From the NCBI GenBank assembly GCA_026125445.1, contig JAHCLE010000010.1:1-41321 (forward strand): 41,321 nt of DNA. Reading direction: 5' to 3'. Position 1 is the first letter of the stretch. Every line of letters begins with the position of its first letter. Below the pieces are notes generated by a model, which worked only from the letters and a program-made list of their open reading frames with translations, did not search any database and was not told where the DNA came from. Shown here piece after piece: positions 5,271-24,469 of this stretch. Origin of the DNA: Burkholderiales bacterium (GTDB taxonomy: Bacteria; Pseudomonadota; Gammaproteobacteria; Burkholderiales; Usitatibacteraceae). The position numbers and the translations under genes were made by a program.

Positions 5271-5393
5271 AGCAAGGTCCAATCGTCCGGGGAACCCTGA
5301 GTCGCTTCGTGCATGGCTCATCACGGGAGTCCCAGCCGCTCGACAATGACTGGAGCGTGTCCCTCGACTCAGGGCATACTACCCTTCACGCCT

Positions 5394-8300
5394 ATGGCCA
5401 GAAAATCCGACAGCCCGATCCTCAATAGCCCCTACGAGGAGCCGAGGAAGCATTACGCCACGGACGGCGAAGGCAATCTCAATTACTCCGACATCCGCGA
5501 TGGCCGGAGGATATTCACGCCGGATACGCCTTCTATACCGTCCTCGCAGGCGCAGCCGACCATGTTCGACCTCAACGAACTGGCGACGGAATTTCGGGAA
5601 CACGTCATAAACCTGCTCAGGGCTGAAGTCGCCGCGTGGCGGAATTCCGGGTATCCCGGTGTGTCTAGCCGCGTAACGCGGGAGCTTCTGGACTACTGGT
5701 TCCGCAACGACGAACGCCCTGATCGCGACAAGTTGTTCTTTGCGCAGCAGGAGGCGGTCGAAAGCGCGATCTGGCTTAACGAGATCGCGGAGCGGTCGAA
5801 TGCCGGTTCGCACATTCTCGATCGACTCACGCGCTCCCAGCGCACGGTTTCGGACGATGCGGAACAGGTTCTTCCCCGGATCGCGTTCAAGATGGCGACG
5901 GGCACGGGCAAGACCGTGGTCATGGCCTGCCTGATCCTCTATCACTTCCTGAACCGCCGGCAATATCGGAACGACACGCACTATGCCGACGACTTTCTCG
6001 TCGTGGCGCCAGGCATCACGATCCGTGACCGGCTCCAGGTGCTGTTCGTGGACACGAGCACGCGCAATCGCTTGGACGCAATGGATTACTACCGGCAGCG
6101 GGCCCTGGTGCCACCCCAGTACGCGGATCAGCTCGACTCGCTGAACGCGCGTCTCGTCGTCACGAATTATCACGCCTTCGAACCCCGCGTTCTTTCGGGC
6201 AACAAGCGAAGCCCGTTCGACGGGAAATTGGATCACGAAGGCAACAAGCGGCAGGCGCTGGAAGACTTCTCGCTCGTCGTGAAGCGCGTGCTTGGCAAGT
6301 TCCGTCCGGGGCGACGACTGCTGATCCTGAATGACGAAGCCCATCACTGTTATCTGCCGAAGGCGAAGGGGCGCGATACGGAAGAGGAGGCCAGCGCCAC
6401 GGAGAACGAGCGCGCCGCCGTCTGGTTCACGGGCCTGACGGAGATCGCGCGGCGCTTTCAGGTGCGGAGCGTGTACGACCTCTCCGCGACGCCGTATTAC
6501 CTCTCTGGTTCCGGCTGGCCCGCCTACTCGCTTTTCCCATGGGTAGTCACGGACTTCGGCCTCATCGAGGCGATCGAAGCGGGGCTGGTCAAGATCCCGT
6601 TCCTTCCGGAGGAGGACACCAGCCAGCAATTGGGCCAGCCCGTACTTCGGGAGCTCTACAAGCACTGCAAGGACCAGCTTCCGCGAAAGGGACAGGAGCG
6701 GGCGCGCAGCGAGGCGAAAAAGAAGAATGAGAAGGTGGCCGAGGCACCGCCGAGCCTTCCGGCCACGCTGGTCACGGCACTCCAGATGTTCGTCCGCCAT
6801 TACGAGAGCTACGAAGCGGGCATGCGGGGCAGGGGCGAGCGACGCATGGACCTGCTCACGGAGCCCCCCGTATTCATCGTCGTGTGCAACAACACGACGG
6901 TGTCCAAGGAGGTCTTCAAGTACGTCGCGGGTTGGGAGGTGGAAGGCGAGGAGGGTGAAACGATCGCGTACGCGGGCGCCTTTGACTGCTTCTCGAACTA
7001 CGACCCTGTTACCAAGGCGCGCCGCAATAAGCCGCCCACGCTTCTCATCGACAGCGACGCGCTGGAATACTCCGGCCAGGTGGATTCGGAGTTCAAGCGA
7101 GTGTTCGCCCCAGAGATCGAACAGTTCAAGCGCGATTTCCGCATCCAGTATCCGGAGCGAAGCGCGGAGGATGTCGACGAAACCGTGATTCTGCGCGAAG
7201 TGGTGAACACGGTGGGCAAGCGCGGCAGGTTGGGTGCCCACGTGCGCTGCGTCGTGTCGGTGTCGATGCTGACGGAGGGGTGGGATGCCAATACGGTCAC
7301 CCACATCGTGGGGCTGCGGGCGTTCAATTCGCAGCTATTGTGCGAGCAGGTGGCAGGCCGGGCGCTTCGTCGCAGGGAGTATTTTCTCGACCCGAAGACG
7401 GGGATGTTCCCGCCAGAGTACGCACACATCATCGGCGTGCCCTTCAAGCTGTTCAAGCCCGGGGCAAGCGAGTATGTGGAGCCCGTGCCGACAGTCGAGG
7501 TGCGCGCCTTGTCGGAACGGGAGAAGTTCGAGATCCGGTTTCCGAACGTGGTGGGCTACCGGGTCCACACGATCGATGCCCCCCTCGAGGCGGATCTGTC
7601 GGCGATCGAGGATTTCAGGCTCGACTTTACAAAGGTGCCGGCCAGGACGCTTCTCGGAACGCCTGTCGGCCCGGAGAAGCGGGTGCTATCCCTGGACGAG
7701 GCCCTCGAGTTGCGCGAGCAAGAGGTTCTCTTCTGGCTCGTCCAGCAGCTTCTCCGCCATCGGTTCCGCGACAAGGACGACCGGCCTGAGGTGACACAGT
7801 TCGCCGCGTTGAGGCGCATTGCCGAGCGCTGGATCGCGGAGAAGGTAAAGGTGATCGGGGAGACGGACGAGCGGTACCGGAGGTTCGTCGTCTACTGGAA
7901 GGGTGAGGAGGTCGCGGCGCACATCAACCGGGCCATCGAATCCCACGCGCAGCGCCAAGGGCGTACAAGCGTTCAGCCCGTCCTGAACCACTACAACCCG
8001 GAGGGTTCGACCCGATACGTGTCCGGGCACACGACGCGCAAGACCATTCCCACGAAGAAAAGTCACGTAAACGTGGTCGTTGCGGACACCGATTCCTGGG
8101 AGCAGCTTACGGCCAAGGCGCTGGACGAGATGAAAGAGGTGGAGTCCTACGTCAAGAACGCCTACCTTCAATTCGGAGTTCCGTACGTCAAGGAAGGCCG
8201 CGACCGTACATACCTGCCGGATTTCATCGCTCGAGTTCGCGTGGGAGACGGGAAAGATGAGTTCGTGAATCTCATCGTCGAGGTCACGGGGATGAACCAG

Positions 8301-8558
8301 GACAAGGCGGAAAAGCGCTGGTACCTGGAGAACCGCTGGCTCCCTGCGGTGAACAATCGGGGGATGTGGGGGCAGTGGGGCTTCGCCGAAATCACGACCG
8401 ACATCGCCACGGTGAAGAACCAGATTTCAGACGCGATCGAACGAGTGCGCGCGGAGGCAGAGGCGCGGCAGGAACGGCAATTCTTTGCCAAGGCGCAGTC
8501 GGTCTCGATGGCCAACGTATGGGACAACCCCGGCGACGAGGTGTGGAATGGTGCTTAG
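5394..8558 (+). CDS. Type III-like restriction enzyme, DEAD/DEAH helicase-nuclease subunit
   Basis: A 1054-residue superfamily 2 ATPase fused to a nuclease-like domain. Seen: Walker A MATGTGKT near residue 167, DEAH box LNDEAHHCY near 313, motif V region LTEGWDANTVTHIVGLRAF, motif VI QVAGRALRR near 651, and a C-terminal PD-(D/E)xK-like block with LPDF near 940 and VEVTG near 962. It would translocate on DNA and cut unmodified DNA together with the methyltransferase at 8891. The ATG at 5394 (MARKSDSP) is preferred; an upstream in-frame ATG at 5313 would overlap the divergent hydrolase region. Its last 11 bases overlap the toxin gene. From memory it resembles a family annotated in databases as BPTD_3080-type restriction endonuclease; I could not check this. 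Base composition is lower in GC than the flanks. Confidence 0.85.
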   Translation: MARKSDSPILNSPYEEPRKHYATDGEGNLNYSDIRDGRRIFTPDTPSIPSSQAQPTMFDLNELATEFREHVINLLRAEVAAWRNSGYPGVSSRVTRELLDYWFRNDERPDRDKLFFAQQEAVESAIWLNEIAERSNAGSHILDRLTRSQRTVSDDAEQVLPRIAFKMATGTGKTVVMACLILYHFLNRRQYRNDTHYADDFLVVAPGITIRDRLQVLFVDTSTRNRLDAMDYYRQRALVPPQYADQLDSLNARLVVTNYHAFEPRVLSGNKRSPFDGKLDHEGNKRQALEDFSLVVKRVLGKFRPGRRLLILNDEAHHCYLPKAKGRDTEEEASATENERAAVWFTGLTEIARRFQVRSVYDLSATPYYLSGSGWPAYSLFPWVVTDFGLIEAIEAGLVKIPFLPEEDTSQQLGQPVLRELYKHCKDQLPRKGQERARSEAKKKNEKVAEAPPSLPATLVTALQMFVRHYESYEAGMRGRGERRMDLLTEPPVFIVVCNNTTVSKEVFKYVAGWEVEGEEGETIAYAGAFDCFSNYDPVTKARRNKPPTLLIDSDALEYSGQVDSEFKRVFAPEIEQFKRDFRIQYPERSAEDVDETVILREVVNTVGKRGRLGAHVRCVVSVSMLTEGWDANTVTHIVGLRAFNSQLLCEQVAGRALRRREYFLDPKTGMFPPEYAHIIGVPFKLFKPGASEYVEPVPTVEVRALSEREKFEIRFPNVVGYRVHTIDAPLEADLSAIEDFRLDFTKVPARTLLGTPVGPEKRVLSLDEALELREQEVLFWLVQQLLRHRFRDKDDRPEVTQFAALRRIAERWIAEKVKVIGETDERYRRFVVYWKGEEVAAHINRAIESHAQRQGRTSVQPVLNHYNPEGSTRYVSGHTTRKTIPTKKSHVNVVVADTDSWEQLTAKALDEMKEVESYVKNAYLQFGVPYVKEGRDRTYLPDFIARVRVGDGKDEFVNLIVEVTGMNQDKAEKRWYLENRWLPAVNNRGMWGQWGFAEITTDIATVKNQISDAIERVRAEAEARQERQFFAKAQSVSMANVWDNPGDEVWNGA

Positions 8559-8880
8559 CCCGGGGGATGTCGTGATGCTGGATGTCATGTATTCGGATCA
8601 GACGGGGATGAAGCAGCGGCCCGCGGTTGTGCTCACGATGCCCGACGCGAACGGCGATTTCCTCATTGCGCCGATCACCACCACTTCCGGCCTTGGCAAT
8701 TCGACGGCGTTGGACGCGGCCAAGTTCGCGAGGGGCGGCCTTCCGCACATGAGCTGGATACGCGCGGATCGTGTGTTCATTGTCAACACGACTACCGTCG
8801 TGAAGCAGTTCGGCACGCTGAAGCCGGAAGCCGTCAAGGAAGTCCTGAAGATCCTCTGTCCGGCAATCGGCTGCAAATAG
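8548..8880 (+). CDS. MazF/PemK-like endoribonuclease toxin
   Basis: A 110-residue protein that starts with the MazF/PemK fold signature: [13 protein letters not shown], then [10 protein letters not shown] and IAPITTTSG, where the Arg and Thr/Ser positions correspond to the RNA-cleavage site of the family. The ATG at 8548 lies inside the end of the restriction gene (11-base overlap), so the two are probably co-translated. The methyltransferase starts 10 bases after its stop. No antitoxin-sized gene lies before or after it, which is unusual for MazF. It could be a domesticated member that acts as part of the restriction system, or its antitoxin is elsewhere or replaced by another island protein. 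Family call is firm, toxicity is inferred. Confidence 0.75.
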
Positions 8881-8890
8881 CGAGAGACCC

Positions 8891-11530
8891 ATGGCTACCA
8901 AGAAGCCCACCCGCGCTGGCAAGACCGCAACGGATGTCCATCGAACGGGCAAGCGAATCGATGCCATCCACCATGAAGGCGACAAGCGGCTGCTCATTCC
9001 TTCGCAGGAAGAGGCAGGGATGGAGTCGGAGAATCCCGTCGTCACGGCCAAGCGGAAGGTGGAGTTCCCGTTGAATCCAGTCACGACTCGCGGGCGAGAC
9101 CCGGAGCTGTACTGGATGAATAAGTACGGGCCTCGCGACGACGAGACGCGGCTGTCCGTGGATATCCGCTCGCTCTATCGCCACGAGCACGTCGAACCCG
9201 AGACGCTCATCCACCGGCTGTACAAGATCCGGAAGAGCGACTCCCCGCAGAACGATCTCTTCATCAACGAGACATTCGGGAATCTGCTTGGCGGTGTGGA
9301 TGAGCTGGACAAGCCGAAGCAGTACTACAAGCATGCCCAGAACTGGCGGAATCGCCTGATTCAGGGGGACTCACTGCTGGTGATGACCAGCCTCCTCGAG
9401 CGCGAGGGAATGGCGGGCAAAGTTCAGATGATCTACATCGACCCGCCATATGGCATCAAGTACGGGTCGAACTGGCAGATGAAGTTGAACGACAGGAACG
9501 TGAAGGATGGCGATGACGCCAATCTGTCAGGCGAGCCGGAGGTCATCAAGGCATTTCGTGATACTTGGGAACTGGGCATTCACTCCTATCTGTCATATTT
9601 GAGAGAGAGAATGCTGGTTGCGCGTGATCTCTTGACGGACTCTGGTTCGTGCTTTGTTCAAATCTCCGACGAGAGTGTCCATCTCGTGCGCAGTGTGATG
9701 GACGAAGTGTTTGGGAGCGAGCAGTTCTGTGCACTTATCACGCTTCAAAAGACGACGGGCGCGGGCAGTCCGGCAATTGGGACCGACGTATTGCCGGCGA
9801 CCAACGACTATTTGATCTGGTATGCCCGATCCCATGAATCCGTGAAGTATCGTCAGCTCTACCTGGAGCGATCTGGTGAGGGATGGGTCAATTACAACTA
9901 CGTTCGTCTGCCAACAGGTGAACATCGGCGCATGACTGCCATTGAGGCATCAAAGTGGAATCTGTTGCCGGCCGGGGCACGTGTCTATCGGCGAGACAAC
10001 CTTACTTCCGCTTCGTCGTCGGGTGAAGCCGCTCGTCCCGTCAATTGGGAAGGGAAGTCGTATGCACCTGGAAAGGGAGGGTGGAAGACGTCACATGCTG
10101 GAATTGCAAGGCTCGGGGAAGCGGGGCGATTGGAAGCATATGGAAGTACTCTTAGTTATCGTCGATTCGCGGACGACTTTCCGTATTTCCGCTTGACGAA
10201 TCTCTGGGACGACGTTTTGACTGGTGGATACGCGGACGAAAAGCTGTATGTAGTTCAAACGGTGAAGAAGATCGTTGAGAGATGTGTGTTGATGACAACA
10301 GACCCTGGGGACCTCGTCATTGACCCGACCTGCGGTTCCGGGACTACTGCCGCCGTTTCGGAACAGTGGGGCCGGCGTTGGATCACGATGGATACTTCAC
10401 GAATCGCGCTCAACATTGCGAAATCGCGTCTTGTCACCGCCATATTTCCGTGGTTTCAGTTGCACGACTTAGTTGGGTCTGACGTTCGTCAAGGGTTTGT
10501 CTACAAGAAGGTCCGGCATGTAACGCTTAAGAGCATCGCAAACGGGGAGCCATCGGAGGAAGAAACCCTGTTCGATCAGCCAGAGATGGACAAAGGCAAG
10601 TTGCGCGTGAGTGGGCCGTTTACTGTGGAGACGCTTCAAGGGCTGGATCCGACACTGCCCGAGAACGTGCAGTCCGGGAAGGCGGAAGTTGATCAACTGT
10701 CGCAATTCTATGATCGGGTATGTGCCCATCTTCAATCCGCTGGCATCAAGAACGGCATCCGAAATGAGAACGCGGTCTTCACCCGCATCAATCCCCTGGC
10801 CCACGAAGCGCTCCATGCCGAGGGCTTCTACACAACGGATCGCGGTGAGGCGAAGGCGTACCTCCACATCGGCCCGCAGTTCGGTACGGTCAGCAAGCAG
10901 GCGGTCAACGAGGCGGCCAAGGAATGCCGAATTCGCGGTGACGCCGATTGGCTGGTGATCCTGGGCTTCCGATTCGATGACGACATCGAGAACCGGGACA
11001 TCGCCACAAAGCACGGCAGCTTTATCGTGACGAAGGTGCGGATGCACGACGATTTGCTTCAGGAAGGACTGGTCAAGAAGGACAAGAAGGCCGCGTCCTT
11101 CGTGACGATCGGGGAACCTGATGTCCATGCCGAGAAGCAAAGGGATGGCACCGTGGTCGTGGAAATCCGCGGGCTCGACATCTACGACCCAATCCGTGAC
11201 GAGGTGAAACCGCGCTCCGTCGCGGACATTGCCTACTGGATGGTGGACGACGACTACGACGGCTCCAGCTTCATCGTGCGGCAGGTGTTCTTCTGCGGCG
11301 GCGACAAGGACGAGTTCGACAAGTGGAAGCGGGGCCTTTCGGACCTCGTGAAACAGACGACAAAGCGAAAGGTCGAGCAGACCCTCAAAGTGGAGATCGA
11401 CGACGAGGCTTTCGACCGGCTTTATGGCTTCCGGTCCCACCCCATTCCGGCCAAGAAGGGACGACGTGTGGCCGTCCGTGTGGTAAGCCAATTTGGAGAA
11501 GAAAGTACTAAAATCATAGGGTTGGGATAG
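8891..11530 (+). CDS. Site-specific adenine DNA methyltransferase (type III Mod-like, beta class)
   Basis: An 879-residue N6-adenine or N4-cytosine methyltransferase. The catalytic motif [14 protein letters not shown] (D184) precedes the SAM-binding motif [10 protein letters not shown] (D478), an order that defines the beta class used by type III Mod subunits. The target-recognition region should lie between them. A long C-terminal part (residues about 540-879) carries no motif I recognise and may contact the restriction subunit. The start follows GAGAG at 8882 and lies 10 bases after the toxin stop, so all three genes form one operon. From about 9540 to 10520 the DNA is visibly more AT-rich than the rest of the gene, as if the recognition region had been swapped by recombination. 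Confidence 0.87.
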
Positions 11531-15906: not shown

Positions 15907-15922
15907 TGCGGAATATTCCGCA
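15907..15922. promoter_or_regulatory. Perfect 16-bp palindrome TGCGGAATATTCCGCA
   Basis: A perfect self-complementary site about 50 bases upstream of the proposed -35 of the peptide gene. Its AT centre contrasts with the GC-rich surroundings. It fits a dimeric regulator site; no cognate regulator can be named. Confidence 0.45.
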
Positions 15923-15998: not shown

Positions 15999-16055
15999 GC
16001 TTTCGCCCCGGGCGGGAAGCCCGGACCGCAACGCAACAGATTCGAGGAGATCGCC

Positions 16056-16295
16056 ATGTCGAACAAAGAACAGAAACCGGTTGCCCAACCCGAAGGCGAG
16101 CTTTCGGACCAGCAGCTCGACAACGTGTCCGGCGGCCAGCAGGTCGTCAAGCTCGAGAAGATCACCGTGACGGCCAAGCGCGAGCAGCCGCAGAACGTGG
16201 TGAAGCTCGACAAGGTCACGGTCACCGCCAAGCGCGAGCCGCCGCTCGCCGGCACGCAGATCGCGTCCGCCGAGGGCGCGACGAAGAAGAACTAG
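16056..16295 (+). CDS. Double-glycine leader peptide with two TonB-box-like core repeats (putative NHLM-exported peptide)
   Basis: A 79-residue peptide. Residues 1-27 look like a bacteriocin-type leader ending ELSDQQLDNVSGG, the motif cut by C39 peptidases after Gly-Gly. The 52-residue core has no Cys and carries two near-identical segments, VVKLEKITVTAKRE (30-43) and VVKLDKVTVTAKRE (48-61), then a small polar tail ending KK-N. ITVTAKRE closely resembles the TonB box at the N-terminus of TonB-dependent receptors. AGGAGA lies six bases before the ATG at 16056 and selects this start over a longer in-frame reading from 15906. It faces a C39-peptidase ABC exporter operon that ends 22 bases away on the other strand. 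Export as a secreted peptide is strongly suggested; a toxin or receptor-directed role is inference. No maturation enzyme lies beside it. Confidence 0.75.
   Translation: MSNKEQKPVAQPEGELSDQQLDNVSGGQQVVKLEKITVTAKREQPQNVVKLDKVTVTAKREPPLAGTQIASAEGATKKN
16143..16238 (+). repeat. Two 42-bp direct repeats inside the peptide gene
   Basis: Units at 16143-16184 and 16197-16238 encode VVKL(E/D)K(I/V)TVTAKRE with a 4-residue spacer. Differences between units are mainly synonymous or conservative, which points to an old duplication kept under protein-level selection. Confidence 0.8.
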
Positions 16296-16317: not shown

Positions 16318-18465
16318 TCAGGCCACCTGCCGCGCGAGCATCGCGGCGAAGGGGCCCGGGACGGCGGCCAGCTCCCGGAACGTCCCTGCCTGGACGATCC
16401 GGCCCCGGTCCAGCACCACGATGCGGTCGGCATTGCGCACCGTCGCGAGGCGGTGCGCGATGACCACGCGCGTGGCCTCCAGTCCCTCCAGCGTCTCCAG
16501 CACCGCCGCCTGCGACAGGTTGTCGAGCGCGCTCGTCGCCTCGTCGAGCAGCAGGATGCGTGGCCGGCCCACGAGCGCGCGCGCGATGAGCACGCGCTGG
16601 CGCTGGCCCCCGGAGAGCGTGCTCACGCCTTCGCCGACCAGCGTGTACATGCCCATGGGCATCGCCTCGATGTCGGCGGCCAGTCCCGCCGCGCGCGCCG
16701 CGTCCCAGGCGTCGTCCACGGTGAGGCTCGAGGCGCCCACGATGTTGGTGAGGATGTCGCCCGCCCACAGGCGCCCGCCCTGCAGCACCGTGCCGATCCG
16801 GGCGCGCAGGCACTTGAGGTCCAGCGCGGGAAGCACCCGCCCGTCGAAGCGAACCGTGCCGCTCCCCGGAAACTCGAATCCCAGCAGCAGGCGCAGCAGC
16901 GTCGACTTGCCGGAGCCGCTGGCGCCCACGATCGCCACGAACTCGCCGGGCCGGATCGAGAGGTCGATGCCGGAGAGCACCTCCGGGCCGCCCGGATAGG
17001 CGAAGGAGACGCCCACGAAGTCGATGGCGCCCTGGGGCTCGTGGCGGATCTTGCCGCGCACGCTGTCCTCCGGCGGCGTGGCGAGGATGGGCCTGGCGCG
17101 CTCCCAGACGGGGGCGAGGGCGGCGAGGTCGATGGCCGTGGCCACCATGCCGTGCACTCCGCCCAGCAGCCCGAACATCGCCGTCTGGAAGGCGACGAAT
17201 TCGCCCACCGACAGGGCGCGCGCGGCCGGCGCCTGCGCCAGCTGCCAGGCGAGGTAGAGGACGAGGATGGCCGCGGCCGGCTGCAGGATCGCGAGCAGCA
17301 CCGACTCGAGGTTGGAAAGCGAGGCGCTGCGGTGGTTGAGGTCGCGGAACTCGCGGTAGCGCGAGAGCCAGTTGGCGTAGGCCCGCGACTCGGCCGCCGC
17401 CGCGCGCAGCTTGGCGATGCCGGAGAAGTACTCGAAGGCCATCGCGGAGAGCTTGCCGTCGGCGGCCTCGATGCGCCGCCCGATCGAAAGCCGCGCCGCG
17501 CCGAGCGCGGCCGAGAGGATGGCCGCAACCGCGACCACGCCCAGGGCCGCCGCGGTGAGCTTCGGGCTGTAGGCGAGCATGAGCGCGGCGTTGGCCGACA
17601 GGAAGATCGCGGTGACGAATGCGCCGATGGAGGCGCCGGTGATGGTGCGCTGCACCGTGTTCACCGCGCCCAGTCGCAGCGCCAGGTCGCCGCTCGAGAA
17701 GGCGCGGAAGAAGCGCGCCGGCGCGCCGATGACGCGGTCGAGCACCGCGGCCTGCATCGCCACCGAGGTGCGCGACTCGAAGCGCAGCACGGCGAGCGTG
17801 CGCAGCACGTCGAGCGCGATGGCCGCCAGCCCCGCCGCGGCCAGTCCCGCGACGATGGCAATCGCCAGCGACGCGGAACCCGCGGGGATGGCGCGGTCGA
17901 TGAGCCTTCCCGTGGCCACCGGCGTGAGCAGCCCCGCGAGCGCCGCCGCCAGTCCCGTGGCCACGAGGACGCCCACCTCGCCGCGCGCGTGCGCGAGGGC
18001 GAAGCGCAGCACGTCCACGGTGCCCAGGGGGCGCGGCTCGAAGCTGCGGTGGAAGGCTAAGGCGAAGGGGGCGAGCCGGCGCGCCGTGTCCTCGTCCACC
18101 GGCCACTCGAGCGGCGGCCCCCCGGCAGGGTCGACGGCAACGAGGCGGTAGCCCGCGAGCGGCAGGGGCACGAGCGCGACCCAGCCCGTGGCGCCCGATG
18201 CGGCCGCGGCGTCGCTCTCGCGCGGCATCTGGCGCCGCTCGGCCACGCGGGCGAGCATCGGCGTGCCGCCCTCGGCCCACCAGCGGCCGTCGAGCAGCAC
18301 GCGCCGCGAACGCAGGCCGAGCGACGCGCCGGCTTCTTCCACCGCAACGGCCTCGTCGGCGAACTCGTGCACGACCGCCTCGCCGCGCACGCCCAGCGGC
18401 GCGGCGAGCAGCCCGAGCGCGCCGGTCAGCGTGGTGGAACGGAAGGCGACGCCGGGATCGGCCAT
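16318..18465 (-). CDS. NHLM-type bacteriocin ABC transporter, ATPase/permease without peptidase (ABC2-like)
   Basis: A 715-residue exporter half-unit. Residues about 1-150 form a cytoplasmic N-terminal region without a C39 catalytic Cys, about 165-435 form the six-helix transmembrane domain, and the rest is the nucleotide-binding domain with Walker A GASGSGKST near 515, signature LSGGQRQRVLIARAL, Walker B ILLLDEATSALD and the H-loop VVIAHRL. In NHLM systems this protein pairs with a peptidase-containing partner. Its ATG shares one base with the partner's stop (TGATG), so they are coupled. Longer readings that continue upstream in the same frame cross the partner gene and are not real. It converges with the peptide gene. 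Confidence 0.82.
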   Translation of the reverse strand: MADPGVAFRSTTLTGALGLLAAPLGVRGEAVVHEFADEAVAVEEAGASLGLRSRRVLLDGRWWAEGGTPMLARVAERRQMPRESDAAAASGATGWVALVPLPLAGYRLVAVDPAGGPPLEWPVDEDTARRLAPFALAFHRSFEPRPLGTVDVLRFALAHARGEVGVLVATGLAAALAGLLTPVATGRLIDRAIPAGSASLAIAIVAGLAAAGLAAIALDVLRTLAVLRFESRTSVAMQAAVLDRVIGAPARFFRAFSSGDLALRLGAVNTVQRTITGASIGAFVTAIFLSANAALMLAYSPKLTAAALGVVAVAAILSAALGAARLSIGRRIEAADGKLSAMAFEYFSGIAKLRAAAAESRAYANWLSRYREFRDLNHRSASLSNLESVLLAILQPAAAILVLYLAWQLAQAPAARALSVGEFVAFQTAMFGLLGGVHGMVATAIDLAALAPVWERARPILATPPEDSVRGKIRHEPQGAIDFVGVSFAYPGGPEVLSGIDLSIRPGEFVAIVGASGSGKSTLLRLLLGFEFPGSGTVRFDGRVLPALDLKCLRARIGTVLQGGRLWAGDILTNIVGASSLTVDDAWDAARAAGLAADIEAMPMGMYTLVGEGVSTLSGGQRQRVLIARALVGRPRILLLDEATSALDNLSQAAVLETLEGLEATRVVIAHRLATVRNADRIVVLDRGRIVQAGTFRELAAVPGPFAAMLARQVA

Positions 18466-20684
18466 CACCCGCCTCCCGTCTCGCCCGCGACGAGGGCCGC
18501 GTAGCGTCCGCCCTCGATCGCCGCGAGCTCCTCGTGCCTTCCGCGCTCCACCACGCGGCCGTTCTCGAGCACGAGGATCTCGTCGGCGTCGCGCACCGTG
18601 GACAGCCGGTGCGCGATCACGAGGCACGTGGTGCCGCGCTTGCGCAGGTTGGCCTCGACCACCGATTCCGTGGCCGGGTCGAGTGCGCTGGTGGCCTCGT
18701 CGAGGATGAGGATCGAGGGCCCGCGCGCCAGGGCGCGTGCGATCTCGATCCTCTGGCGCTGCCCCCCGGAGAGGTTGCGCGCGCCCTCCTGCAGGGGCGC
18801 ATCGAGCCCGCCCTGGCGCACGCCGATCTCGTCCTCGATGGCGGCGTGGCGCGCCGCGGCGCGGATCACCTCGTCCTCCGCGGCCGGGTCCCACATCGTG
18901 AGGTTGTCGCGCACGCTGCCCTCGAAGAGCATCACGTCCTGGTCGACGTAGGCCACGGCGCGCGCGAGCTCCTCGCGCACGAAGGACCCGCGCGGGAGCC
19001 CGTCGAAGAGGATCTCGCCGCTCCAGGGGTGGTAGAGGCCGGCCGCCAGGCGCGCGAGCGTCGACTTGCCCGAGCCGGAGGCGCCCACCAGCGCCACGCG
19101 CCGCCCGTCGCCGACCACGAGGCTGAAGCCCTCGACGAGGGGCGGGCCGCCCCTGGAATAGCCGAAGGTCACGTCGCGGAACTCGAGCGTGCGCGGGCGC
19201 GCGCCGGAGATCGCCGACGGCGGATCCTCCACCGCCGCCACGCCCGGCTCGGCGGGATGGTTGAGCACGTCGTCCAGCCGCGCCATGTCCCCGCGCAGCC
19301 CCTGCAGCTTGCGCGCGGCGAGGAAGAGCGCGTGCACCGGCGCGGTGAAGCCCGCCAGCAGCACCTGGAAGGCGACCAGGTCGCCGACGCTGAACCCGCC
19401 GCCCTGCATGATGCGAAGCGACCCCAGGCCCAGCACGCCGAGCTGCGCCGCCAGGCCCGCGAGCGCCGGCACCTGCATGAGTGCCAGCGTGGCGCGCTGC
19501 GACTCGACCGCCGTGTTGGCGAACTGCACCTGCAGGCCCAGCCACTTGAGGAAGAGCGCGCCCTCCTGCCCGCCGGCCTTGATGCTCTCGATGTTGGCGA
19601 GCCCTCCCGTGGCCATGCCCGAGAGCTTGCCCGCCTGCACCGACAGGCGCTGCGACACGCCCTCGTTCACGCGGTTGATGGCGCGCAGCGCCGCGAGCTC
19701 GCAGGCGAGGCAGGCGAGGACCAGCGCCGTGAGGCCCACGTCGAGCCGCAGCATGAGGCCGAGGAAGAAGACGGCGGTGACGAGGTCGAGCACCAGGTGC
19801 GCGAGGTCCGCGGAGACGGTGTGCGCCACCTCCTCGTTGAGGTCCACGCGCGAGGCGATCTCGCCCGGCGAGCGCTGCACGTAGAAATCCATCGGCAGGG
19901 CCAGGGCGTGGGAGAAGAAGCGGCGGGCGGAGCCCAGCGCCGCGCGCGTGAACGCCGCCGTGAGCACCCGCGCCTGCAGCCAGGAGAGCGCTCCGCGCGC
20001 GAGCGCCGCCGCGAGCAGGCCCGCGAGCAGCGTCTCGGCCACTCCCGGCAGCCGCGCGGCGAGCACCTCGTCCACGAAGCGGCCCATGAGCCACGGCAGC
20101 GCGAGCCCCGGCGCCACGAGGGCGAGCCCGAGGAGTACCGCGAGCGCCACCGACGGGCCCAGTCCCGCGAGGTGGCGACGGAGCGAGCGCAGCACGGAGG
20201 GCGGCTCGCCCCCGGGCGCGAACTCCGGACCCTTCTCGAAGGTGAGGACCACGCCCGTGAAGCCCTCGTCGAACGCGGCCGCGTCGAGGCGCCTGCGGCC
20301 CATGGCGGGATCGTTGAGCCAGGCCTCGCCGTCGCGGAAGCCCTCGAGGACGACGAAGTGGTTGAAGTTCCAGAAGACGATGGCGGGAAGCGGCAGGCTC
20401 GCGAGCTCGCCGGGCTCCTTGCGGAAGCCGCGCGCGACGAGGCCGTAGCCGCGCGCGGCGCGAAGGATGCCGCCCGCCTTGCTGCCGTCGCGCGTGACGC
20501 CGCAGTCCGAGCGCAGCACCTCCAGCGGCACGTGGCGGCCGTGGTGCGCGAGCACCATCGCCAGCGCGGCGGCGCCGCACTCCACCGCCTCGAGCTGCAG
20601 GATCGTCGGGACGCGCGCGATGGGCGAGTCCGGCAGCCGCGAGGCGGCGGCCGGGGCGGCGGCCTGCGCGGCTACCGAAGCCAT
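18465..20684 (-). CDS. NHLM-type bacteriocin ABC transporter with C39 peptidase domain (ABC1-like)
   Basis: A 739-residue peptidase-ABC exporter that would remove the double-glycine leader and export the core. The C39 peptidase has Gln30/Cys36 in ILQLEAVECGAAAL, His109 in NFNHFVVLEG and Asp125 in LNDPAMG, so the catalytic set is complete. A transmembrane domain follows (about 165-440), then the ATPase: Walker A GASGSGKST near 535, signature LSGGQRQRIEIARAL, Walker B ILILDEATSALD and H-loop VIAHRLS. The ATG at 20684 lies within the end of the 55-residue gene upstream and there is no good Shine-Dalgarno site, so translation is probably coupled. An obvious substrate is the double-glycine peptide at 16056. 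Confidence 0.87.
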   Translation of the reverse strand: MASVAAQAAAPAAASRLPDSPIARVPTILQLEAVECGAAALAMVLAHHGRHVPLEVLRSDCGVTRDGSKAGGILRAARGYGLVARGFRKEPGELASLPLPAIVFWNFNHFVVLEGFRDGEAWLNDPAMGRRRLDAAAFDEGFTGVVLTFEKGPEFAPGGEPPSVLRSLRRHLAGLGPSVALAVLLGLALVAPGLALPWLMGRFVDEVLAARLPGVAETLLAGLLAAALARGALSWLQARVLTAAFTRAALGSARRFFSHALALPMDFYVQRSPGEIASRVDLNEEVAHTVSADLAHLVLDLVTAVFFLGLMLRLDVGLTALVLACLACELAALRAINRVNEGVSQRLSVQAGKLSGMATGGLANIESIKAGGQEGALFLKWLGLQVQFANTAVESQRATLALMQVPALAGLAAQLGVLGLGSLRIMQGGGFSVGDLVAFQVLLAGFTAPVHALFLAARKLQGLRGDMARLDDVLNHPAEPGVAAVEDPPSAISGARPRTLEFRDVTFGYSRGGPPLVEGFSLVVGDGRRVALVGASGSGKSTLARLAAGLYHPWSGEILFDGLPRGSFVREELARAVAYVDQDVMLFEGSVRDNLTMWDPAAEDEVIRAAARHAAIEDEIGVRQGGLDAPLQEGARNLSGGQRQRIEIARALARGPSILILDEATSALDPATESVVEANLRKRGTTCLVIAHRLSTVRDADEILVLENGRVVERGRHEELAAIEGGRYAALVAGETGGG

Positions 20685-20839
20685 GCGGCGAAGGCGATCA
20701 CGGCGACGGCGAGGAGCGCGATCCCCGCGGCGAGCCGGCGCGGGTAGGCGGGCAGGCGCGGCCTCGCGTCGAGGCGCTCCGGCGAGGCCAGGCGCTCGAG
20801 CGCCGCCTTGCGGAAGATCGCGTTGTCGGGCGCGGCCAT
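20672..20839 (-). CDS. 55-residue N-terminal stub of an NHLM HlyD-type membrane-fusion protein
   Basis: The product starts like the secretion (HlyD) proteins of NHLM systems, with IFRKAALERLASPERLD at residues 8-24, and continues through one membrane helix (LAAGIALLAVAVIAFAAWLR) to a TAG stop. The coiled-coil and periplasmic adaptor domains of about 350 residues are absent and there is no space for them, since the peptidase-ABC gene begins 13 bases before this gene's end. GAGGAG lies just upstream of the ATG at 20839 and overlaps the previous stop, so the stub is probably translated. It may anchor or regulate the exporter, or be a relic of deletion. This small gene is easily missed. Confidence 0.6.
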   Translation of the reverse strand: MAAPDNAIFRKAALERLASPERLDARPRLPAYPRRLAAGIALLAVAVIAFAAWLR

Positions 20840-20846
20840 CGGCTCC

Positions 20847-21371
20847 TCAGCCCGCCAGGCGCTTGAGCATGCGGTCGAAGCGCGCGCCGGCGAGGTGGAC
20901 GTTGTCGAGCAGGTCGTCGGTGAGCTCGTCCTTGGCGTCGGCGTCCTCGGCCCCGTCGCCGTAGCCCATGCGCCGCGTCGTGCTGCGCAGCCGGCTCGCG
21001 AGGAAGACGCAGAGCGCGCGGTAGAAGCGCGCGGCGAAGGCCGGGTCCGCGGAGAGCTTGGCGCGCACGGTGGCGTCCGAGATCCTGAGGAGCGTGGCGT
21101 CGCTCGCCACCCGAACGCTCACCGCGGTCGGCGCCGGGTCCACGAGCGACATCTCGCCCACGATCTCGCCCGATCCCATGAGCGCGAGCTGCGTGCCCGC
21201 GGCCGTGTGCACCGAGAGGGCGCCCTCGAGCACGAACCAGATGTTGTCGACGCGGGCCCCGAGGGGAACCAGCGTGGTCCCGGCGTCGAGGTGGATGCGC
21301 TCGCCCGACTTCGAGAGCCACTCCACGTCGCCGTCGGTGAGTTCGCTGAAGATGAGCAGGACCTTGCGCAT
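20847..21371 (-). CDS. Cyclic-nucleotide-binding-domain protein of the export operon
   Basis: A 174-residue Crp-like beta-roll protein (residues about 10-115; GSGEIVGEMSLVDPAPTAVSV matches the phosphate-binding cassette G-E-(x)-S with a following Arg-free TAVSV) and no helix-turn-helix, so it is not a Crp-type DNA-binding regulator by itself. Residues 116-174 are helical and acidic. In NHLM-type clusters such domains accompany the exporter. GGAGGGGAG lies about 7 bases before the ATG at 21371. It is the first gene of a four-gene minus-strand operon. The conserved Arg of true cAMP binders seems replaced by Thr-Ala, so cAMP binding is doubtful. Confidence 0.75.
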   Translation of the reverse strand: MRKVLLIFSELTDGDVEWLSKSGERIHLDAGTTLVPLGARVDNIWFVLEGALSVHTAAGTQLALMGSGEIVGEMSLVDPAPTAVSVRVASDATLLRISDATVRAKLSADPAFAARFYRALCVFLASRLRSTTRRMGYGDGAEDADAKDELTDDLLDNVHLAGARFDRMLKRLAG

Positions 21372-22105: not shown

Positions 22106-23107
22106 TCAGCCTTCGGGAAGCTCGGGTTTCTCCGGGTTCCAGTAGGCGAAGGTGCTCCAGTACGAGGGGCCTTCGTCGCCCGGGGGTCCCACGTCGCACT
22201 CCCCGCAGATGCTCATCGTCGCCCGGCTCGAGTCCATGGCGGCCAGCAGCCGACGGCGGGGCTCGTCGCGCAGGATTTCGCTGTATCGCTGCGTGCGCAG
22301 GTCGCCCAGCACGGCGGCGTGCGGATGGATGCAGCAGGGCACGACGGTGCCGTCGCCGTCGACGTAGAGCTGGTTCATCTCGCCGAACCACTGCTTGTGG
22401 ACGAATTCCGACGCGTCCGCCGCGTACACGCAGTGGCCGCGGGGAACGACGACCACGCGCCCGGTGAGGTTCTCCTTGGCCTGCGGCAGTGCCATCCACT
22501 TGCGGAACTCGGGCGTCCACCCCATCGGGCGCAGGAGATTCTCCCAGCGCTGCGCGTCCTGGCGGGTGCGCACGATGGTGCGCGTGCCCAGTTGCATCGC
22601 CGGCGCCCAGCGGTCGCGTAGCACCCGGGCCCGCTCGAGGAACTCCATGAGCTTCTCCCACTTCGACGGCGGGCGAAGGCGCTCGTATTCCTCCGGGGTG
22701 CCGTCGCCGTCGCAACTGACGACGAGGCGGTTCACGACCTCCAGGCGCATGGCCTCCTCGAACTGGCCCCAGTCGACCCACTGCGCGTTCGTGCTGATCT
22801 CGACGATCGAAGCCTTCCAGCTCTGGCGGGGGATCTCCGCCACGAGCGAGGCGAGCTGCCGGTGCAGCAGCGGCTCGCCCTCGCGGTACAGCCGCAGGTA
22901 GGCGATGCGCTCGACGTCGATGTTGCGCAGGCAACGAGCGAAGTCCTCCACGGGAATGCGGTACACCTTGGGCTCGATCATCGGCGTCGGGCACCCGAGG
23001 CAGCGAAGCTGGCACCCGCGCACGATGTCGAACTGCAGCATGAAGATGTGCTTCGGCTTCGCCGGGCTCGCGGGGCCTTGAACGGGATGCAGCGGGATGA
23101 CGCTCAC
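22106..23107 (-). CDS. Radical SAM/SPASM-type protein in a surface-polymer cluster
   Basis: A 333-residue protein with the radical SAM cluster motif CQLRCLGC near residue 35 and a Cys-rich C-terminal part (PCCIHPHAAVLGDLR and ICGECDVG) typical of SPASM auxiliary iron-sulfur clusters. It should bind SAM and carry out radical chemistry on an unknown substrate. No ATG precedes the conserved region; GTG at 23107 is the best start, with ATG at about 23041 possible but short. It lies 92 bases after the Wzt-like gene on the same strand, with its own AT-rich promoter-like stretch. Such proteins occur in polysaccharide loci, so a polymer-related role is more likely than modifying the distant double-glycine peptide. 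Confidence 0.75.
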   Translation of the reverse strand: MSVIPLHPVQGPASPAKPKHIFMLQFDIVRGCQLRCLGCPTPMIEPKVYRIPVEDFARCLRNIDVERIAYLRLYREGEPLLHRQLASLVAEIPRQSWKASIVEISTNAQWVDWGQFEEAMRLEVVNRLVVSCDGDGTPEEYERLRPPSKWEKLMEFLERARVLRDRWAPAMQLGTRTIVRTRQDAQRWENLLRPMGWTPEFRKWMALPQAKENLTGRVVVVPRGHCVYAADASEFVHKQWFGEMNQLYVDGDGTVVPCCIHPHAAVLGDLRTQRYSEILRDEPRRRLLAAMDSSRATMSICGECDVGPPGDEGPSYWSTFAYWNPEKPELPEG

Positions 23108-23126
23108 GAATGGGCTTTCGGCAGTA

Positions 23127-23161
23127 GGCGGCCGGAAAGGGCCGCCAAGGACCTGATTATC
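23127..23161 (-). promoter_or_regulatory. Promoter-like stretch and hairpin before the radical SAM gene
   Basis: Reading the minus strand, GATAAT (23161-23156) is a good -10 but no convincing -35 lies upstream. Between it and the GTG start a 7-bp hairpin, GGCGGCC/GGCCGCC (23146-23127), would form in the leader RNA. Confidence 0.3.
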
Positions 23162-23199
23162 ATACGGGTTCGGCTCCGGTGCCGGCGTCGGGGCGGGGG

Positions 23200-24399
23200 T
23201 CAGGGCCTGCCACGGCCCGGCAACCAGGTCTGGCGCGGGCGGACGAACCCATAGTCGCGGATCTCGCCCGTCACCGTGAACTCGCTCGTCACGGTGTCGA
23301 ACAGCCTCAGTCCGGCGGGATCCAGGGCGTGCACGCGGAAGATGTACTTGCCCGGAAGCAGCTCCAGGGGCCCGTAGCGGATCGCGTAGCCGAAGTGGTT
23401 GGGGGCGAGGCGGGCGGGAACGAAATCGAAGTCGTTCGAATGCGTGCCGCTGATCCCCACGCCGTTCACGCGCGCGATGCCGGCGAGGACGACCGGCGGG
23501 CGGTCGTCGGGATCGTAGGCGACGATCTGCGCGACGGCCGTCCCGCCCATGGGAAAGACGTCCTGCGGGCGCCCCCCGGAGTCCTCGGACCACAAGGAGA
23601 CGATGCGGGGAGTGGAGCCGAGCGGTGGCGGCGGGGCGTCGGCCCTGGCCGCGGACTTGGCCTCGTGGTATGCGAGGTACTCGCGCGTCACATCGAAGGC
23701 TGCACCCTGCATCCGCGCGCGTCCATGGTGCAGCCACAGGGCGCGGGTGCACAGGGTCTGGACGTGGTACATGCTGTGCGAGACGAGGAGCAGCGTGCCC
23801 CCGGCCGCGCGGTAGCGCTCCAGCCACTCGATGCACTTCTTCTGGAAGGACTCGTCGCCGACGGCGAGCACCTCGTCGGTGATGAGCAGCTCGGGATCGA
23901 GCGCGGTGGCCACGGCGAAGCCCAGGCGCACGACCATGCCCGACGAGTAGTGCTTGATCGGGTCGTCGATGTGGCTGCCGATGTCGGCGAAGTCGATGAT
24001 CGACTGCGTCTTTCGCGCGAGCTCGCGCGGCGAGAGGCCGGCGAGCGCGCCCGAGAGCCCGATGTTCTCGCGGCCCGTGTACTCGGGATGGAAGCCGCTG
24101 CCGAGCTCGAGGAGCGCGCCGATGCGTCCCGACACCTCGACCGTGCCCGCCGAGGGCCGCGACACGCCGGCGATGATCTTGAGGAGCGTCGACTTGCCGG
24201 CGCCGTTCTCGCCGATCACGCCCACCGACTCGCCGCGCCGCACCTCGAGGTCGATCGAGTCGAGCGCGCGGAAGCTGGGCGCCTCGCGGCGCCGCAGCAT
24301 CAGCGCGGCCAGCGCGCGCAGGCGATCGCCGCCCGTGGCGAGCTTCGGGTAGTCCTTGGTGACCGCGTCCAGGCGGACGAGGATGTCGGGAGGAGGCAT
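23200..24399 (-). CDS. Wzt-like ABC transporter ATP-binding protein with polymer-recognition domain
   Basis: A 399-residue ATPase for export of a surface polysaccharide or teichoic-acid-like polymer. Walker A GENGAGKST is near residue 62, the motif GRIGALLELGSGFHPEYTGR is the Wzt/TagH hallmark, the signature is HYSSGMVVRLGFA, and Walker B is LLITDEVLAVGDESF. Residues about 265-399 form a beta-rich C-terminal domain as in Wzt, which binds the polymer end before export. The ATG at 24399 gives the usual family start; further upstream the frame has no homology. The partner permease (Wzm/TagG type) is not in the window and must be elsewhere. It follows the IspD-like gene after 70 bases. Confidence 0.87.
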   Translation of the reverse strand: MPPPDILVRLDAVTKDYPKLATGGDRLRALAALMLRRREAPSFRALDSIDLEVRRGESVGVIGENGAGKSTLLKIIAGVSRPSAGTVEVSGRIGALLELGSGFHPEYTGRENIGLSGALAGLSPRELARKTQSIIDFADIGSHIDDPIKHYSSGMVVRLGFAVATALDPELLITDEVLAVGDESFQKKCIEWLERYRAAGGTLLLVSHSMYHVQTLCTRALWLHHGRARMQGAAFDVTREYLAYHEAKSAARADAPPPPLGSTPRIVSLWSEDSGGRPQDVFPMGGTAVAQIVAYDPDDRPPVVLAGIARVNGVGISGTHSNDFDFVPARLAPNHFGYAIRYGPLELLPGKYIFRVHALDPAGLRLFDTVTSEFTVTGEIRDYGFVRPRQTWLPGRGRP

Positions 24400-24469
24400 G
24401 GTCGCGTTCCGGGCGCCGGAGCGCCGGCGCGGTGGGCATTCTACTTCGGGGGCGCCGCGGACGCGTCGC

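Follow-up and report, generated by a model that had tools for sequence, protein, structure and literature searches.

A stretch of 41,321 nucleotides of Burkholderiales DNA, hereafter the window, encoded a 79-residue peptide precursor whose core consisted of two tandem repeats resembling the TonB boxes of the same genome's own receptors. The gene was conserved in relatives and was linked in fixed arrangement to an exporter with a truncated HlyD partner, and a parallel family of Sec-type peptides carried the same boxes, singly or in pairs. The interpretation that we favor, and to which we assign about even chances, is that this self-made peptide would bind TonB by strand addition, compete with the receptors and regulate the producer's own TonB-dependent uptake.

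Peptide precursor and its TonB-box-like repeats

The precursor gene occupied positions 16056-16295 of the + strand, started with ATG, and was preceded at 6 bases by a ribosome-binding site (GAGGAG; 16044-16049, + strand), with similar sites in homologues. Its translation was MSNKEQKPVAQPEGELSDQQLDNVSGG followed by QQVVKLEKITVTAKREQPQNVVKLDKVTVTAKREPPLAGTQIASAEGATKKN, the presumed cleavage site lying between the two. The double-glycine leader (residues 1-27; 16056-16136, + strand) ended in GELSDQQLDNVSGG; the pattern GELSDQQLDxVSGG, of the type found in double-glycine/C39 systems, was kept among homologues. A cut after GG27 would leave a Cys-free core of 52 residues. Two tandem units of 54 nt, 81% identical in DNA sequence, made up most of it: unit 1 (16137-16190, + strand) contained the TonB-box-like KLEKITVTAKRE, and unit 2 (16191-16244, + strand) contained KLDKVTVTAKRE. 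The 14-residue copies of VVKL(E/D)K(I/V)TVTAKRE within them spanned residues 30-43 (16143-16184) and 48-61 (16197-16238), and five of the seven base differences between the two 42-nt repeat cores were synonymous. Translation and tandem-repeat analysis thereby bore out the leader, the Cys-free core and the two copies as the earlier note had described them. The C-terminal tail 3' of the repeats (16245-16292, + strand; ending in LAGTQIASAEGATKKN) had an invariant A70 and nearly invariant K77 and K78. An AlphaFold model of the precursor, of low confidence, showed a helix at residues 18-24 only and a disordered core.

No other ORF of the window had such a double-glycine leader, and the gene was the single match in its own genome assembly. 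The peptide had no match in Pfam and no credible match in PHROGs, and its NCBIfam matches were weak, confined to the leader and all below the model cut-offs. An NHase- or Nif11-like leader body was absent (TIGR03793, 14 bits against a cut-off of 50.9, last 17 positions only).

A perfect 16-bp palindrome, TGCGGAATATTCCGCA, was located 134-149 bases 5' of the peptide start (15907-15922; 0.02 expected per window). It was kept as TGYSGAATATTCSRCA or close variants upstream of the peptide in two genera and was almost unique in each genome; it is a probable regulator site. A wider palindrome regulon was ruled out, as the pattern was nearly unique to the peptide promoter.

The repeats resembled the TonB boxes of receptors identified in the same genome through their Plug domain (AEKVEKIEITGSRVKR, QKVEKIEVTGSNIKR, AVEKLTVTGSRIER, SLDAMVVTATR and others). 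With a scoring matrix built from eight TonB boxes, all from this genome's own TonB-dependent receptors, the repeats scored 19.9 (unit 1) and 17.2 (unit 2), against a maximum of 11.2 among approximately 9000 11-mers of the window, and none of 5000 shuffled cores reached the repeat scores. The likeness extended over 11 positions, including the flanking K-(L/V)-E-K and R, and both repeats matched the TonB-box sequence. A second matrix, from other receptors, agreed with the eight-box matrix but was not independent of the peptide, because those receptors had come from a peptide-profile search. In that search, conducted with related peptides, the matches outside the peptide family lay mostly in long ORFs, at the TonB box, and all 20 of those checked were TonB-dependent receptors with a Plug domain. 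In one member of the bacterial family (G009, locus L051) a receptor-length ORF began with KLEKITVTATKREE. The window's own genome had nine Plug and four TonB_C matches. The proposal that the repeats are TonB-box-like thus holds at the level of sequence, both by the own-receptor matrix and by the Plug-bearing profile matches.

Exporter operon, truncated HlyD and conservation

The peptide gene stood tail-to-tail with ABC2 (16318-18465, - strand), an NHLM-type permease/ATPase without peptidase, at a gap of 22 bases between the peptide ORF and the ABC2 stop (16318), as had been reported. ABC2 matched TIGR03797 with 693 bits, just under the curated cut-off of 709. ABC1 (18465-20684, - strand) had a C39 peptidase-permease-ATPase architecture and matched NHLM_micro_ABC1 (TIGR03796; 876 bits, above the cut-off of 853) and Pfam Peptidase_C39 (1.3e-33); it is the presumed protease acting after GG27 and exporter of the core. 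The Cys, His and Asp motifs of its C39 domain were all recognized by eye, which agrees with the NHLM-type pair with complete triad of the earlier note, ABC2 falling slightly short of its model cut-off. The operon ran in the order cyclic-nucleotide-binding protein, mini-HlyD, ABC1, ABC2, and the C39 ABC transporter typical of double-glycine systems was linked to the peptide. The first gene (20847-21371, - strand) encoded a cyclic-nucleotide-binding-domain protein (Pfam cNMP_binding, 4e-13), in which no DNA-binding domain was found. The C-terminus of this protein (DELTDDLLDNVHLAG) was conserved and resembled the end of the peptide leader; this end might be a pseudo-leader that docks on the C39 domain, unless the likeness is due to chance.

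Mini-HlyD (20672-20839, - strand; 55 aa) overlapped the start of ABC1 and comprised an N-terminal box, IFRKAALERLASPERLD, and one membrane helix, without the periplasmic adaptor. The same truncation occurred in all loci, with the stop position recurring across them. NCBIfam did not recognize mini-HlyD, and a dedicated stub profile was therefore compared with true HlyD; it matched the N-terminus of the full-length NHLM HlyD from the canonical cluster of a relative (E 5e-8 at Z = 4000). That cluster (L167, G020:C160) comprised a full HlyD, a cyclic-nucleotide-binding protein and a glycine-rich NHLP-like precursor. Full NHLM HlyD exceeded the cut-off in two of 28 genomes, at other loci. In place of the full membrane fusion protein of type I secretion of the microcin V type, the locus had only the stub of about 55 residues. 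From its sequence, the exporter looks like a canonical NHLM system minus its periplasmic arm. With the HlyD partner reduced to a membrane stub there would be no periplasmic adaptor to the outer membrane, and periplasmic release is therefore the simplest reading, although generic HlyD-like matches exist, and a full fusion protein from another locus could supply the missing part.

Homologues beside such exporters, which the earlier note had proposed to look for in other genomes, were present in 12 genomes, all from a single betaproteobacterial family; one genus contributed six of them (including that of the window), another five and a further genus one. The records bearing the peptide included Betaproteobacteria bacterium GR16-43 and the MAG FeB_7. 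Identity among homologues dropped to 44% with retention of leader and boxes. In ten aligned homologues, E15, L21, D22, G26 and G27 of the leader were invariant (L16 and S17 in at least 90%), as were K32, V38, T39, R42, V48, V56 and R60 of the core. Codon-wise counts between relatives were rich in synonymous changes for close pairs but not for distant pairs, so that by themselves they are weak evidence; it is the conservation of leader and boxes down to 44% identity, together with box scores above those of the window and of the shuffled cores, that indicates more than chance.

Wherever the contig permitted a view, the peptide was tail-to-tail with ABC2, and it was found in all 12 loci extending beyond ABC2. 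The cyclic-nucleotide-binding protein gene was present in 15 of 28 family genomes, 12 of them with the peptide; in the remaining three the contig stopped within ABC1 or ABC2, short of the expected peptide site. Operon and peptide were on separate contigs in three fragmented assemblies (G001, G007 and G021), and the peptide never occurred in a genome lacking the exporter. The block conserved across genera consisted of peptide, ABC2, ABC1, mini-HlyD and cyclic-nucleotide-binding protein, the other flanking genes varying by genus. No immunity gene, no TolC-like gene and no TonB, ExbB/D or receptor gene was seen in this block, and no sensor or dedicated receptor was linked to the locus.

Beyond the family, no peptide of the double-glycine type was found in 399 genomes of the order or in a scan of genome contigs from 84,980 species, with a filter and patterns that could miss diverged members, and plasmids and phages gave zero matches.

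Among the neighboring genes, a 777-aa ORF at 22106-24439, near the exporter, had radical SAM and SPASM domains and adjoined an IspD-domain ORF and glycosyltransferase genes. It was rejected as a source of radical SAM modification of the peptide, since it lay outside the block conserved across genera, which contained no linked modification enzyme. Positions 5313-11530 of the window held a type III restriction-like pair, a helicase subunit (ResIII) and an N6/N4 DNA methylase.

Sec-type TonB-box peptides

Most members of a third genus of the family lacked the exporter and had many small TonB-box genes instead, such sequences being present in 11 of its genomes. Their architecture was a conserved KDN and a hydrophobic stretch followed by two boxes (MNTETTSKDN...AVQKMEAIVVTAKRLPAPKLDTIVVTAPRIASRA) or by one terminal box (...SDTIVITATRLK). 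The signals, as judged by eye, look Sec-like, with AxA-like ends. The genes were single, and the loci examined shared no neighborhood. Some of these peptides (L122, L124 and L053, of G013, G008 and G022) ended right after their single box, as a receptor N-terminus without the receptor. One genome (G021) had both the double-glycine and the Sec type. The set had no convincing known family, its few marginal NCBIfam matches being TonB-dependent receptors, and no Sec-type peptide was found beyond the family in 369 genomes of the class, where the first-pass filter and patterns could miss diverged members. That one cargo should have two routes points to the boxes as the active portion and to the periplasm as the site where they act.

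Proposed function, alternatives and significance

In the mechanism that we favor, the C39 domain of ABC1 would cleave after Gly27 and the ABC1/ABC2 pair would carry the unstructured 52-residue core through the inner membrane. As its HlyD component amounts to no more than a membrane stub, this exporter would let the core go into the periplasm and not to the cell exterior. Its two TonB boxes would then add beta strands to the TonB C-terminal domain, as receptor boxes do, and the peptide would consequently vie with TonB-dependent receptors for a limited number of TonB molecules, and thereby slow or tune the producer's uptake. Two boxes may provide avidity or bridge two TonBs, and the cyclic-nucleotide-binding protein may gate the exporter. 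A Ton-box peptide of BtuB bound TonB with a KD of 9.4 uM (PMC5413942). The synthetic TonB-box pentapeptide ETVIV, credited by PMC11308372 and PMC5413942 to Tuckman and Osburne 1992, inhibits TonB activity (PMC11308372) and, added to cells, serves to block TonB (PMC5413942). For a two-box peptide in the periplasm, competition with receptors would be the expected consequence.

The earlier note had envisaged a weapon against competitors. As a secreted bacteriocin, the peptide would exit the producer and, in competitors, jam TonB, or its own boxes would let it be pulled in through a receptor. A double-glycine leader with a C39 exporter is typical for class II microcins, TonB boxes occur in colicins (PMC11658791), and ETVIV is active when added externally (PMC11308372 and PMC5413942). 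Yet the periplasmic part of HlyD was absent from every locus, the conserved block had neither an outer-membrane channel nor an immunity gene, the core consisted of boxes only with no killing domain and was not hypervariable as weapons usually are, and the Sec-type relatives would be expected to stop at the periplasm. The HlyD stub and the Sec-type family move the reading away from a bacteriocin, which we consider unlikely. The same note had also suggested jamming or signaling at TonB in the envelope; this part agrees with the findings provided that the peptide acts on its own producer.

A rather unlikely alternative is that the peptide serves as cargo or as messenger instead of inhibiting anything, TonB pulling on it or the peptide reporting TonB occupancy to an envelope sensor. 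TonB systems can drive secretion through a TonB-dependent transporter, as in the PopC/Oar example (PMC6434023), the cyclic-nucleotide-binding protein suggests sensing, and the tail was partly conserved, but the locus had no linked sensor or dedicated receptor. The acceptor might be another TonB_C-domain protein, a TolA-like protein or an assembly factor, with a convergent likeness to TonB boxes; short hydrophobic beta motifs are simple and the genome had four TonB_C matches, whereas a likeness over 11 positions, flanks included, to the genome's own receptors makes this quite improbable. Lastly, the motif is typical of receptor N-termini, as a functionless remnant of a receptor gene would have it, but such a remnant would hardly have its own leader and ribosome site, a conserved exporter partner, a conserved palindrome and a sequence maintained across three genera, and this explanation is given very little credence.

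Exporter and leader are of known kinds, and no described family matches the cargo. Class II microcins, for example microcin V, likewise have a double-glycine leader and a cleavage-export ABC transporter, but here HlyD was a stub, neither a TolC partner nor an immunity gene lay nearby, and the core was made of TonB boxes. NHLP/Nif11-type RiPP export clusters (TIGR03793/03798 with TIGR03794/03796/03797; PMC2887384) have in common the ABC1/ABC2 families and the leader end ELSDxxLDxVSGG; here, the NHase- or Nif11-like leader body was missing, no modifying enzyme was kept, and HlyD was truncated. Nif11-like double-glycine precursor families of another genome (L070 and L071, of G194) had a very similar leader end (GELSDVQLEAVAGG) and unrelated cores. 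The N-terminal TonB box of receptors of the BtuB, FhuA and FecA type shares the motif and the presumed binding mode, but stands before a plug and barrel, while the boxes described here were stand-alone and in tandem. ETVIV (Tuckman and Osburne 1992) likewise blocks TonB as a free peptide with a TonB box, but it is man-made and external, whereas the present peptide is genome-encoded with its own export route. Colicins and pyocins bearing a TonB box are likewise non-receptor proteins, but are large toxins with receptor-binding and killing domains. No description of such TonB-box peptides was found in the open-access literature or the family libraries searched, in line with the earlier note, which knew of no class of this design.

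We tentatively propose, at slightly below even chances, that stand-alone TonB-box peptides form a natural class that reaches the periplasm by two unrelated routes (C39/NHLM without fusion protein, and Sec) and throttles or reassigns the cell's own Ton motor. If TonB binding were proven, these peptides would be of a new kind, and a C39/NHLM exporter would have been repurposed for periplasmic delivery. The peptide may also offer a naturally occurring lead for TonB inhibitors; TonB is an antibacterial target against which synthetic peptides have already been tried. TonB is shared by many receptors at once, and how it is shared out among them is, to our knowledge, not settled in the field. If the proposal is true, it would add a post-translational control layer to outer-membrane transport, undescribed within the literature searched, in which a free TonB-box peptide encoded by the genome would directly regulate how receptors compete for TonB.
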